Position numbers and translations under genes: made by a program. From positions 1 through 32,459 of IMG/VR virus record IMGVR_UViG_3300042923_000049: a stretch of 32,459 nt of DNA, one strand, 5' to 3'. Positions 5,274-8,683 of the stretch are shown piece by piece. The notes under the pieces are model-generated. The model did no database searches. It was not told the origin of the DNA and saw only the letters and a list, made by a program, of their open reading frames with translations. How positions within the stretch are numbered: the stretch's first letter is position 1; each line of letters opens with the position of its first letter. This DNA is from a virus.

Positions 5274-5506
5274 GAGACGTCCTCCGTGTCAATGAGATCG
5301 AATGTCATACGAAGGATCTGGTTGGGGGGAATGAAGACGTAGCGCTTCTCTTCCATCACCAGGAAGAAGCCGTCCTTGGTGATCTCCTCAGTAGCTCCCA
5401 AGACATCGCCCGCGAAGTCATCTCCGTCAAACTCCGTGCGCACTGTGTGAGTGCGCTTGAGCCCATCGAGGTCCAGGTAGTCAATGGCGACCTCTGCTTC
5501 AGTCAC
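5270..5506 (-). CDS. Unknown 78-residue protein
   Basis: MTEAEVAIDYLDLDGLKRTH..., predicted beta-rich and acidic, with a Phe/Tyr-containing core (GFFLVMEEKRYVFIPPNQILRM). It overlaps the methyltransferase C-terminal gene and the exonuclease gene by four bases each (ATGA). No family is recognised. Confidence 0.7.
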   Translation of the reverse strand: MTEAEVAIDYLDLDGLKRTHTVRTEFDGDDFAGDVLGATEEITKDGFFLVMEEKRYVFIPPNQILRMTFDLIDTEDVS

Positions 5507-6357
5507 TGCTGTGCCTCCTTCATAAAGGCCACCTGTTCAAGGAGGTGGCTGAATGCGGCGTACGCCTGCTGAGGCACAACGCCATTACCTATCTTGTGAA
5601 GTTGTTCCGCCCGCGGGTCCTTCTTCGGAGGGACCAGTTCGGGTACCTCAGTCACCCAGCCATCCGGAAGTCCCATCAACCACTCAGCGAACCGAGCTGT
5701 GAGCCGACGTCCCCCGCGGGGCCCCACCTCAGTGGGGATTGGGGCCTGGCGGCCGGTGAGGGCTTCCTGTCGCCGGATGGCGGGTTCGTACTCAGCCCAG
5801 TCCTGGACCAGGCCGTCATCTTCGGGGAGTTCGTTGACTGCGGTACGAAGGTTCATCCCGCCCTTGCGCCCGGGACTTGTGCCTGCACCACCCTTGCCGT
5901 CAGAAGCCGTGGGTGTGGGGAAGAGAAGCACAACCTCACTCAAAGGCCGGCTGTTCTTCCCATGCAGATTCGAGGCACCTGACTTCCAGTCACGCGCCGT
6001 AGGAGTAGGGAGAAGATGCACGACAGCACTAGGCAACGCGTCATACTCCCCCTTTGAGTTCCGCATGTTCGGCCCCCCATGAGGGCCATCAGACGCCTTC
6101 GGCGTCGGCAGGTACTGCGATTCCAAACCAGCGGTTACGTTGATGTGCAAATCCGGCATCGGAAGCTCGTAGAGTTGTCCAGAGCAGGTCATACCCGACT
6201 TCGGCCAGGTCTTCGGCGACAGTGGAGAGTCCTCGTCCGCGGATTGCTGCCACGTTTTCCAGGAAGACGAGTCGGGGTCGAAGTATCCCAACTGCATCAA
6301 CGACGTTCTTCCAGATTCCTGAGCGCTCACCCTCAATACCCTTTCGCTTGCCAGCAT
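5503..6357 (-). CDS. C-terminal part of a cytosine-5 DNA methyltransferase (second frame)
   Basis: 284 residues in the +1 frame relative to the upstream methyltransferase gene, which it overlaps by 269 bases. Three LPTP/FPTP-x-A-x-D repeats (83, 116, 147) are typical of the variable target-recognition part of phage cytosine methylases. RLTARFAEWLMGLPDGW (218-234) and GNGVVP (257-262) match motifs IX and X, which the upstream frame lacks. The N-terminal 80 residues (YFDPDSSSWKTW, TWPKSGM, LYELP) look like a conserved sequence in their own right although the DNA also encodes motifs VI-VIII. The ATG at 6357 has AGGA eight bases upstream; an in-frame GTG at codon 10 is another option. It may work as a separate subunit or be joined to the first part by frameshifting. 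Confidence 0.75.
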   Translation of the reverse strand: MLASERVLRVSAQESGRTSLMQLGYFDPDSSSWKTWQQSADEDSPLSPKTWPKSGMTCSGQLYELPMPDLHINVTAGLESQYLPTPKASDGPHGGPNMRNSKGEYDALPSAVVHLLPTPTARDWKSGASNLHGKNSRPLSEVVLLFPTPTASDGKGGAGTSPGRKGGMNLRTAVNELPEDDGLVQDWAEYEPAIRRQEALTGRQAPIPTEVGPRGGRRLTARFAEWLMGLPDGWVTEVPELVPPKKDPRAEQLHKIGNGVVPQQAYAAFSHLLEQVAFMKEAQQ

Positions 6358-6589
6358 TTGAGATGTCCTGGCAGGGGAACCCCGCCGTGATGATGTCGAC
6401 TAGGCCCTGAAGTTGGGCCCAGTCGTAGGCAGTGATGTCCCCGATGTTGGGGACATTGGGGAATCGGTAGGCCAGAATCTTGGACGCTGCCTCATCGACT
6501 TCAGCGACGTAAGCCACCTTGTCCCCTGTCAGCTCTTCAACCGCCAGGCCCAAGCCGCCGTAGCCGGCGCACAGCTCAAGAATCGGCAT
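6089..6589 (-). CDS. N-terminal catalytic part of a cytosine-5 DNA methyltransferase
   Basis: 166 residues carrying motif I (ELCAGYGGLG, S-adenosylmethionine binding), motif IV with the catalytic P72-C73 (GFPCQDIS), motif VI E111-N-V and motif VIII QRNR (150-153). It stops after PADAEGV, before the target-recognition region and motifs IX-X, which lie in the next frame. AAGGAG lies seven bases before the ATG, and the start overlaps the DUF3310 gene by 14 bases. Full-length relatives are usually 300-400 residues, so alone it is incomplete. It probably methylates phage DNA to evade host restriction. Confidence 0.85.
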   Translation of the reverse strand: MPILELCAGYGGLGLAVEELTGDKVAYVAEVDEAASKILAYRFPNVPNIGDITAYDWAQLQGLVDIITAGFPCQDISNAGKRKGIEGERSGIWKNVVDAVGILRPRLVFLENVAAIRGRGLSTVAEDLAEVGYDLLWTTLRASDAGFAHQRNRWFGIAVPADAEGV

Positions 6590-7019
6590 TCCCAGACTCC
6601 TTTTCGAGCTGCTGAATCTCGTAGTCGAGATACCAACGGGCCTTCTTGAGGTCTTCGAGCTTTCGTCCCTTGTGATCCGCCCTCATCAGGTACTTCAGGG
6701 CGTTGCCACGGACGAAGGGGAACGCCGCAGTAACGTCAATCACTTCGATGCCGTTGGGGAGCCAGGTGTAATGACTCGGATGAGCCACCGCATCAGGTCG
6801 CTTGTCAACCTTAACGACAGAAGAAGGCAGCCCGTCATAGACGTACTCAAACTCCAGCTCGGCTTCTCGGCAAAGGCCGAGAGCAAGAGACCCTCCATCG
6901 AACTTGACCTCAATAGGCCATTCCGGATGAGCATCCACCCTGGTTACCTCGCCTCGCCTATCGACCTCTTCCAAGTTGTCTACAACCACTACACGGTCAC
7001 CAACGCTGAACTTGCTCAT
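6576..7019 (-). CDS. DUF3310 protein with N-terminal KOW/SH3-like domain
   Basis: 147 residues in two parts. Residues 1-60 (SKFSVGDRVVVVDN ... GEVTRVD) look like a KOW/SH3-type beta barrel. Residues about 80-140 match DUF3310: HPSHYTWLPNGIEVIDV ... NALKYLMRADHKGR ... DLKKARWYLDYEI. Family members include the T7 gp1.7-type phage nucleotide kinase, so a role in dNMP metabolism is possible but not shown. The ATG overlaps the stop of the small KOW-like gene upstream (ATGA). Confidence 0.8.
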   Translation of the reverse strand: MSKFSVGDRVVVVDNLEEVDRRGEVTRVDAHPEWPIEVKFDGGSLALGLCREAELEFEYVYDGLPSSVVKVDKRPDAVAHPSHYTWLPNGIEVIDVTAAFPFVRGNALKYLMRADHKGRKLEDLKKARWYLDYEIQQLEKESGNADS

Positions 7020-7186
7020 GCGTCCACCTTCCGGAGTTCAGAGAAGTCGAACCAGAGCGGAACACTTTCATCGTCCAGGAGGACACGAGCATCCGAGTAC
7101 TCGGCAAGAACCTCCACCACTTCCCCGAACGCGCCATTGAAGTGATCAGCCGTTACCGCTTCAACGCGGTCACCAATCTGGTACAT
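7016..7186 (-). CDS. 56-residue KOW/SH3-like protein
   Basis: A short gene: MYQIGDRVEAVTADHF... ending in LRKVDA. Its start overlaps the primase stop (TGATG) and its stop overlaps the DUF3310 start (ATGA), so it exactly fills the space between two real genes. The sequence (IGDRVEAV ... GEVVEV ... VPLWFDFSELRKV) is like the N-terminal domain of its downstream neighbour (VGDRVVVV ... GEVTRV ... EAELEFE), suggesting a duplicated domain. Function unknown. Confidence 0.75.
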   Translation of the reverse strand: MYQIGDRVEAVTADHFNGAFGEVVEVLAEYSDARVLLDDESVPLWFDFSELRKVDA

Positions 7187-7884
7187 CACGCCTCCAAGCC
7201 AAGCAGTCGTCGAATGAATCCGTCACCGTGATCGTGACGGAGTGAATCAGGATCAGATCCCTCAGGGAGCTGGATAGGAACTCCGTTGGGGAGCTTCTCC
7301 GCTAGCTTCTCGTTCATCTCCTGACCGGCCTTGTCCCCGTCCCCGAGAAGGAACACCTTCTCGTAGCCGGCGAAGGCTCGCTCAAAGTGCGTCTTCCAGG
7401 CGCTCACACCCTGAAGAGCAACCGCAGGGATGCCGTCTAGGTCGACTGCCCAGGACGAGAACTCCCCCTCAGTGATGGCCACATAGGGGCTGGAGGTGAT
7501 CAGGGCCCCGGTGTTGTACAGCCGGGGATGGTCCCCAGGAAGGGACTGGTACTTGCCGTGGCCCTCGTGGTGTTCCTTCTCGCCCAGGAGGAAGAAGTAC
7601 GTCCCATCAGGAGCCCGTACACACTCGTCTCGGATGCACCGGAAACGAACCGTGGCTACCAGGTGAGGCCCGCCGGCAGGACGGAGATACGGGACGACAA
7701 GATGGTTCTTGTACTTCTCATGACCCGTCACCGAATCGCCTACGTAGCCGGGGAGCCACCTCTCTGCGCCCTCGTCCAAACCGCGGGCGATCAGGAACTC
7801 CTCTGCTGGGCTCCCCCTGTACTGGCTCTGGTAGTGCTTCGCTGCTTCCACCGAACCGGGCATCTGCCCATTCGATCGCTTCAC
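7186..7884 (-). CDS. DNA primase, TOPRIM catalytic part (second frame)
   Basis: 232 residues. The TOPRIM signature is present: E139 in YVAITEGEFS and D182-x-D184 in VFLLGDGDKAGQ, the metal-binding residues of DnaG-type primases. The N-terminal portion (VEAAKHYQSQYRGSPAEEFLIARGL) matches the linker found in phage primases. It reads +1 relative to the zinc-finger gene upstream, overlapping it by 167 bases. The GTG start at 7884 has GGAGGGG about 10 bases upstream, so independent initiation is plausible. It would make RNA primers together with the zinc part and the helicase-like ATPase. Confidence 0.82.
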   Translation of the reverse strand: MKRSNGQMPGSVEAAKHYQSQYRGSPAEEFLIARGLDEGAERWLPGYVGDSVTGHEKYKNHLVVPYLRPAGGPHLVATVRFRCIRDECVRAPDGTYFFLLGEKEHHEGHGKYQSLPGDHPRLYNTGALITSSPYVAITEGEFSSWAVDLDGIPAVALQGVSAWKTHFERAFAGYEKVFLLGDGDKAGQEMNEKLAEKLPNGVPIQLPEGSDPDSLRHDHGDGFIRRLLGLEA

Positions 7885-8143
7885 GGAAGCCGATCCCCTC
7901 CTCTCTCATGATGACTGCCCATGAGTCCTCAGATACGTCACAGGCGTGACAGTGCCATCTGTCGGCCTCGGGATTAACCGAGGCACTAGGTCTGTCCTCC
8001 ACATGCAAGGGGCACAGAACCTTCCTCCATGCCCCTCCCCAATCGGGGATCTCGACTTCCGGGTAGAACTCCTCGAAGACTTCGAGGATCGGAGGCTTAG
8101 GCGGAGGCGGGAGCTTCCGTCCTGATGTGAACCCGCGTGCCAT
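7718..8143 (-). CDS. DNA primase, CHC2 zinc-finger part (first frame)
   Basis: 141 residues from the ATG at 8143 (GGAG seven bases upstream; the longer start at 8179 has no ribosome site). The zinc ligands C44, H47, C65 and C68 form the CHC2 motif that recognises template DNA in DnaG primases. After ADARFGGS (about residue 100) the frame becomes Arg/Pro/Gly-rich and no longer looks like a primase, while the +1 frame continues it, so the last 40 residues may be overlap-encoded filler or be replaced by frameshifting. Separate zinc and TOPRIM polypeptides are also possible. Confidence 0.8.
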   Translation of the reverse strand: MARGFTSGRKLPPPPKPPILEVFEEFYPEVEIPDWGGAWRKVLCPLHVEDRPSASVNPEADRWHCHACDVSEDSWAVIMREEGIGFREAIEWADARFGGSSEALPEPVQGEPSRGVPDRPRFGRGRREVAPRLRRRFGDGS

Positions 8144-8258
8144 CCTCGTTCTCCAGGTAGACGTGGACAGGGAACTCATAAGAGCGGTGGAGCTGCTTCA
8201 TGAAGTGGGCATTTCCCATGAACTCGTGGTAGTCGTACTTCAGCCCGGAGTGGTCCAT
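8097..8258 (-). CDS. Unknown 53-residue protein
   Basis: MDHSGLKYDYHEFMGNAHF... ending in EAPASA. AAGGA lies nine bases before the ATG, which overlaps the endonuclease VII stop (TGATG). It overlaps the primase start by 47 bases in another frame. It is rich in His and Tyr and has a short beta-like segment (FPVHVYLENEDGTRVHI). No family is recognised. Support comes from translational coupling and from filling an otherwise empty gap. Confidence 0.55.
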   Translation of the reverse strand: MDHSGLKYDYHEFMGNAHFMKQLHRSYEFPVHVYLENEDGTRVHIRTEAPASA

Positions 8259-8683
8259 CAGTCTGTGTCCTTACGGTTGTCACGGTGTATTCGGATGCCG
8301 AGGATCTGAACAGCCGGCGGAGTCACCAGGTACTCCGCGGCCTTGAGAAGGACTTCGGGCTTGTCCCGAGCTGCTGTCAGGAGCCGGCCATTGCACATCC
8401 GGCAGAGAAGACCTCGGACTTGCCCCGTCTTGTGGTCGTGGTCCACGGAGAGCCTCTGTCTCCGAGTCCCTCCACAGATGGCGCACTTCCCGCCCTGCGC
8501 CTCAAACAGCCGGTCGTACTCGCCGGCTTCGAGTCCGTATGTGTCCTGGACTCTGGCCTCATGGGACGCCTTGGAGCGTCCCTTCTTCCGACAGTCGGCA
8601 CAGAGCCGACCCCGCGGTGTGAAGAACCTGAGAGCCCTGTTCCTCGAACACCTAGTGCACTTGCGGGTCTTAGAACCTGGCAT
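8258..8683 (-). CDS. Endonuclease VII family HNH nuclease
   Basis: 141 residues. The core YGLEAGEYDRLFEAQGGKCAICGG ... SVDHDH ... VRGLLCRMCNG is the recombination endonuclease VII pattern: zinc Cys67, 70, 94 and 97, and catalytic D81-H-D-H84. A second Cys pair set (C9, C12, C28, C31) forms an N-terminal zinc finger, common in actinophage members. T4 endonuclease VII resolves branched DNA before packaging; many relatives are nicking or homing enzymes, so the exact role is open. The ATG lies inside a copy of the 16-base repeat. Confidence 0.88.
   Translation of the reverse strand: MPGSKTRKCTRCSRNRALRFFTPRGRLCADCRKKGRSKASHEARVQDTYGLEAGEYDRLFEAQGGKCAICGGTRRQRLSVDHDHKTGQVRGLLCRMCNGRLLTAARDKPEVLLKAAEYLVTPPAVQILGIRIHRDNRKDTD

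Follow-up and report, generated by a model that had tools for sequence, protein, structure and literature searches.

To our knowledge, long overlapping genes on the same strand with both products conserved have rarely been documented in bacteria and phages. In the EcoHK31I methyltransferase, the beta polypeptide is located in an alternative frame inside alpha. M.EcoHK31I consists of two polypeptides that divide the conserved motifs as I-VIII,X and IX, with motif IX on the smaller one (PMC3404938). In M.AquI, motifs I-VIII are carried by one polypeptide and motifs IX-X by the other (PMC3404938). The fragments of artificially split M.SssI complement each other, most effectively if the C-terminal one begins after motif VIII and before the target-recognition region (TRD) (PMC3404938).

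Here, we analyze a methylase locus from a virus record of 32,459 bases, the whole of which is referred to below as the window. As in M.AquI, motifs I-VIII and motifs IX-X of the window lie in separate open reading frames (ORFs), alpha and beta. An earlier note on this DNA had claimed a methylase encoded in two overlapping frames, and this is what we find: the ORFs at 6089-6589(-) and 5503-6357(-) stand in a +1 relation and have 269 nt in common (6089-6357). We consider it likely, with a rough probability of 0.8, that these are two overlapping genes on one mRNA that encode the two subunits of a single C5-cytosine DNA methyltransferase (C5-MTase). What we observe are conserved frames, initiation signals of beta's own and a motif set that is complete when the ORFs are taken together; the association of the subunits, their activity and their role are inferred, in the absence of protein or methylation data.

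The two frames and their parts

The features of the locus are listed below, with the frame of alpha called frame 1 and the +1 frame called frame 2.

6597..6602 (-): Shine-Dalgarno sequence of alpha, AAGGAG, 7 nt 5' of the ATG at 6589
6089..6589 (-): alpha ORF, 166 aa, with C5-MTase motifs I-VIII (PCQ catalytic motif, ENV, QRNR)
5503..6357 (-): beta ORF, 284 aa, in the +1 frame relative to alpha, with N-domain, TRD and motifs IX and X
6089..6357 (-): stretch read in both frames, 269 nt; frame 2 stays open to 6399
6328..6330 (-): alternative beta start GTG, with AAGG 9 nt 5' of it
6160..6300 (-): beta N-domain (GYFDPDSSSWKTWQ...KTWPKSGMTCSGQLYELP), wholly within alpha, opposite the region around motifs VI-VIII
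6190..6213 (-): frame-2 core KTWPKSGM, which is EDLAEVGY in alpha and imposes the rare codons GGG TAT on it
5812..6111 (-): TRD with LPTPxASD repeats, in frame 2 (alignment A1; AF2 confidence low)
5650..5706 (-): motif IX region RLTARFAEWLMGLPDGWVT, near-invariant in alignments A1/A4
5551..5607 (-): motif X region EQLHKIGNGVVPQQAYAAF, with GNGV (nearly) invariant in alignments A1/A4

Window alpha is matched by PF00145 at 3.4e-36 (profile positions 2-163) and, in the PDB by sequence, by M.HhaI at 5.6e-16; it fulfils the motif I-VIII criterion for a C5-MTase (PF00145). PCQ and ENV are invariant among the alpha sequences of alignment A3, and the TGA stop of alpha comes shortly after motif VIII. 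Motifs IX-X, which a complete C5-MTase needs, are present only in trans, in beta (EWLMGLPDGW and GNGVVPQQ). Beta is matched over nearly its whole length by phrog_1008 ('DNA methyltransferase', 2.6e-64), and its match to PF00145 is weak and below threshold (profile positions 269-320). These matches bear out the proposed placement of motifs I-VIII in one frame and IX-X in the +1 frame. The possible starts of beta are ATG 6357 (AGGA, 8 nt spacer), GTG 6330 and ATG 6297; because there are three of them, the exact length that is doubly read is uncertain.

The N-domain was delimited by per-position frame-2 conservation in excess of shuffled sequences. Pfam holds no model for beta apart from the sub-threshold match of window beta, NCBIfam holds no fitting model, and neither database has a fit for the betas of the 'deep' relatives defined below; the N-domain, absent from both, is new here. 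Searching the PDB by sequence with beta gave nothing meaningful, the one match of window beta (E=0.002) being to a chain labelled CCDC180. For the N-domain, AF2 predicts four strands (22-27, 32-35, 55-58 and 61-64) with modest confidence, and the fold is unsettled. Confidence was low for both betas that were modelled alone (mean pLDDT 59 for window beta), with one AF2 input alignment lacking rows from annotated phage records, and Foldseek with the model of window beta found no significant PDB match. Such an outcome would be unsurprising if beta folded only in the presence of its partner, but it is not positive evidence for this.

Two neighbouring regions may be mentioned. A primase is apparently split alike, into CHC2 zinc-finger (PF01807) and Toprim (PF13155) ORFs at 7186-7884 (-) and 7718-8179 (-), which overlap by 167 nt in a +1 relation. 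An Endonuclease VII-type gene (PF02945, 4.9e-23) lies near the methylase at 8258-8683 (-).

Conservation of the second frame among homologues

Megablast against phages gave no match; a tblastn search with beta hit 573 phage records, the majority from actinophages. Loci were collected with beta and beta profiles, with an alpha profile (a sampling independent of frame 2) and from bacterial genomes; 175 distinct virus/phage loci with intact motifs I-VIII entered the analysis. Whichever query had found them, nearly all fetched loci have the N-part of beta in the +1 frame of alpha. Alpha is also encoded in 80/80 bacterial-genome loci found by beta, where its +1 frame is open in 99% of cases versus 29% expected. 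In plasmids, tblastn with deep-type betas turned up weak matches, four records in one search and three in another. Around 20 bacterial loci, 10 of them searched by Pfam and the other 10 by PADLOC alone, we recognised no restriction endonuclease; the Pfam hits near such loci include an integrase and a primase-like protein. In Mycobacterium phage GigiOuiOui (L018, 1636-2191), alpha matches fall in two frames (residues 1-91 and 92-162), and the gene looks frameshifted.

The earlier note had further judged that both readings of the shared stretch look like real protein, and had proposed a synonymous-site test on homologues as a check; the judgement is supported. Synonymous codons were shuffled 100 times per ORF, preserving the alpha protein and its codon counts. 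Frame 2 of the window scores 107 bits against the N-domain profile, versus a shuffle mean of 30 and maximum of 56 (z 7.8), well outside what chance would give. The window is one of the profile's 14 sequences, and more weight therefore belongs to loci that did not enter the profile. Of 68 loci sampled by alpha alone, ~90% score above every one of their 100 shuffles, and 82% have an open frame 2 (14% expected). In the window itself, the openness of frame 2 is unremarkable (P(open) 0.35), and the evidence for selection, as we infer it from these comparisons, comes from the homologues and not from openness in the window.

Stops, silent sites and codon choice point to the same region. Across the 175 phage loci, frame +1 has 0.02 stops per 100 codons over alpha residues 118-143, versus 2.6 expected; frame +2 is not depleted (5.8 observed versus 5.2 expected). 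The frame +1 depletion is absent 5' of alpha residue 96, and frame-2 constraint climbs from residue ~97 onward. Over 76 disjoint pairs, the difference at four-fold sites of frame 1 drops from 0.42 upstream to 0.28 within the overlap (p 1e-23) and is smallest, 0.12, at the KTWPKSGM core; this silent-site constraint is confined to the overlap. In the [LVIM]GY[DE] motif, Gly is encoded by GGG in 122/122 loci (background 0.12-0.16) and Tyr by TAT in 111/122 (background 0.13-0.34), because frame 2 needs S-G-M there. Where frame 1 has changed silently within the core, the resulting frame-2 replacements are conservative (BLOSUM -1.08 versus -1.59 expected); in the upstream control they are not (-1.68 versus -1.76 expected). 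The silent-site and BLOSUM tests weigh most, since shuffles ignore shared ancestry and both of these tests have an internal upstream control. Loci and pairs are not fully independent, and disjoint pairs were used in the cited tests. By these statistics, the second frame is under selection as a protein, and both frames are conserved.

We considered whether the similarity in frame 2 could be a by-product of the conservation of alpha, and rejected this on the synonymous shuffles and on a control with classical enzymes. In classical C5-MTases of the same genomes and E. coli Dcm, frame-2 stops are mostly near the expected level and frame-2 profile scores are no better than those of their own shuffles; GGG was not seen at the motif in the classical enzymes examined. 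In those genomes, all dual-type enzymes except L342 (z 0.8) test positive. L342, from a Merdimmobilis hominis genome, has an open frame 2 with motif IX placed there, but the N-domain profile is unmatched; its N-domain is perhaps divergent.

Constraint could also act on the nucleotides, as an internal ribosome-binding site or RNA element, with frame 2 translated only for the TRD and motifs IX-X. The peak of constraint over a short core (residues 121-143) would suit this, as would the frame-2 stop at alpha residue ~113 in some relatives (Andrew, DarthPhader, L028), by which the most upstream part of the N-domain must be dispensable in them. However, a nucleotide element would not account for stop depletion specific to frame +1, for frame-1 silent changes that are conservative in frame 2, or for the recurrence of the same frame-2 amino acids from 32% to 73% GC, and we regard it as very unlikely.

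Layouts, frame changes and translation

The homologous loci distribute the later motifs between the frames in four ways. In the 'split' layout of the window, motifs IX and X are in frame 2; in the 'deep' layout (70/80 bacterial loci), frame 2 has IX and frame 1 has X; in the 'fused IX-X' layout (e.g., L183, L177), IX and X are in frame 1 and the TRD is in frame 2; and in the 'fully fused' layout (e.g., L003, L004, L164), TRD, IX and X are all in frame 1. The regular expressions used left 51 loci unassignable. The doubly read part in the window is 269 nt, covering the N-part of beta only, and in deep relatives the overlap is near-complete. In every assigned layout, alpha and beta jointly hold the full motif set. 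On a quick alpha tree, the four layouts cost 16 changes, where the minimum is 3, and we infer that the TRD, IX and X modules swap frames by indel.

Two sets of loci illustrate the variety. L183, L177, L176 and L178-L181 have motifs I-VIII, IX and X in the alpha frame and the TRD repeats in frame 2; several share a conserved C-terminus (about RWIDKKFRLHWIKVN), and their beta may be limited to N-domain and TRD. L109 and L077 have identical alpha regions followed by a fully fused and a split arrangement, respectively, a difference that we read from the sequences as a very recent frame switch.

The locus could also be a single-frame gene disrupted by a sequencing error or a recent frameshift mutation, its enzyme broken, a suspicion that the annotation of the relative in phiBT1 as possibly inactive and the existence of single-frame homologues could raise. 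However, the identical split is present in 35-36 distinct loci that cluster on the tree, and both halves are conserved. The number of independent loci rules out recent error as a general account, as the earlier note had anticipated, and we give it almost no credence. That note had also named, as grounds for refutation, homologues in one continuous frame that do not conserve the second reading; the fully fused loci do have a single frame, but as a group they conserve that reading.

In these loci, the N-domain in frame 2 is still constrained (silent-site differences 0.23 versus 0.43, p 3e-4, 16 loci, 7 pairs), though little else of beta is left, and it either helps the enzyme in trans or has a function of its own. 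This raises the alternative that the N-domain generally serves a separate function, e.g., as a regulator or anti-defence peptide, and merely travels with the methylase, since it is conserved where alpha contains the TRD and both IX and X. Against this, alpha is present in every locus found by beta profiles, so that the N-domain was met only together with alpha, and in most loci it is continuous with the TRD and motif IX, which fits a methylase role. We think a separate function unlikely. A broader reading, which we hold only tentatively, is that a C5-MTase clade in phages and prophages of many bacterial phyla has an ancient overprinted second gene whose N-domain, found only opposite motifs VI-VIII, remains selected when alpha has absorbed the other parts of beta, whether as an independent part of the enzyme or as a separate protein, and that TRD, IX and X repeatedly move between frames.

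How frame 2 is translated bears on the earlier suggestion of a conserved two-subunit or frameshift design. Programmed +1 ribosomal frameshifting in the overlap could fuse alpha and beta, the upstream reading of frame 2 then being incidental; the +1 relation, the long overlap and the natural single-chain fused relatives would all fit. However, frame 2 is strongly constrained 5' of any junction near the alpha stop, and frame-2 starts that bear a Shine-Dalgarno (SD) match of 4 nt or more are enriched twofold over chance: 94% of the split loci have one, against 42% of their shuffles, and so do 88-100% of the loci in the other assigned layouts (33-38% in shuffles), the deep type among them with 88% (36% expected), with a family median at alpha residue 85-89 in most layouts. 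The 3' ends of alpha have no common slippery site beyond what frame 2 dictates, and the TGA of alpha that the window's closest relatives have in common follows from the frame-2 Ser-Asp codons. Nor can a single frameshift read the deep layout: to take in IX in frame 2 and X in frame 1, a ribosome would have to pass from frame 1 to frame 2 and return. We find frameshifting highly improbable. The SD enrichment, the lack of a slippery site and the deep layout therefore make two assembling polypeptides the best account; of the earlier suggestion, conservation stands and the two-subunit form is favoured over the frameshift.

In the two-subunit reading, ribosomes initiating at the strong alpha site would produce the AdoMet-binding and catalytic half (motifs I-VIII), and others, initiating inside alpha in the +1 frame, would produce beta, comprising the overprinted N-domain, the TRD and motifs IX-X. 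The halves would then associate as a heterodimer into an active enzyme that may methylate phage DNA, most plausibly to evade host restriction; such protection is the likely role, inferred from the family only. The weak AF2 result for beta alone, the frame-2 stop at ~113 in some relatives and the annotation of phiBT1 gp9.1 as 'may be inactive' count against this reading.

Comparison with known systems

That the double reading is conserved in many phages and prophages points to a two-part enzyme that is widespread and poorly annotated. By implication, phage methylases now labelled single, duplicated, truncated or inactive may in many cases be half-enzymes whose partner is unannotated or mislabelled. 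The overlap can be tested by sequence statistics, given hundreds of loci over 32 to 73% GC, for which the single-frame methylases in these genomes provide a control. The layouts also form a natural series in which domains of one enzyme change frame by indel while the motif set stays complete, and the cost and benefit of overprinting are therefore testable.

We found no description of an overlap of this type in phages in the open-licence literature; the phage- and prophage-wide overprinted family and its frame swapping are new here. A known actinophage methylase with an overlapping frame inside it owes this to a mobile insertion, the hidden frame being a homing endonuclease, and is unrelated to the present overlap. 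Relative to a programmed frameshift fusion, the criterion of a conserved slippery site is unfulfilled at the alpha ends. phrog_1008 is also matched, at least in part, by all 40 deep-type betas, and its label does not mention overprinting. The layout of the window recurs in homologues found by tblastn, gp9.1 of Streptomyces phage phiBT1 and other loci labelled 'DNA methylase (x2)', whose annotations speak of two methylases or of a truncated or possibly inactive one. In phiBT1 (L008, 1914-2801), the beta ORF that overlaps and follows gp9.1 is intact and unannotated.

The larger subunit of M.AquI has part of the variable region and the smaller its distal half (PMC3404938), whereas in the window the recognisable TRD repeats are in beta; the published description (PMC3404938) mentions no 269-nt double reading that includes an overprinted N-domain, and the M.AquI sequence was not compared. 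In M.EcoHK31I, whose sequence was likewise not compared, motif X and the predicted TRD are on the large subunit, whereas TRD, IX and X of the window are on beta. By the criteria of the M.EcoHK31I type, the window has motif IX on beta and lacks motif X on alpha, which its deep-type relatives do have; these phage and prophage loci show the same motif split as M.EcoHK31I and M.EaeI.
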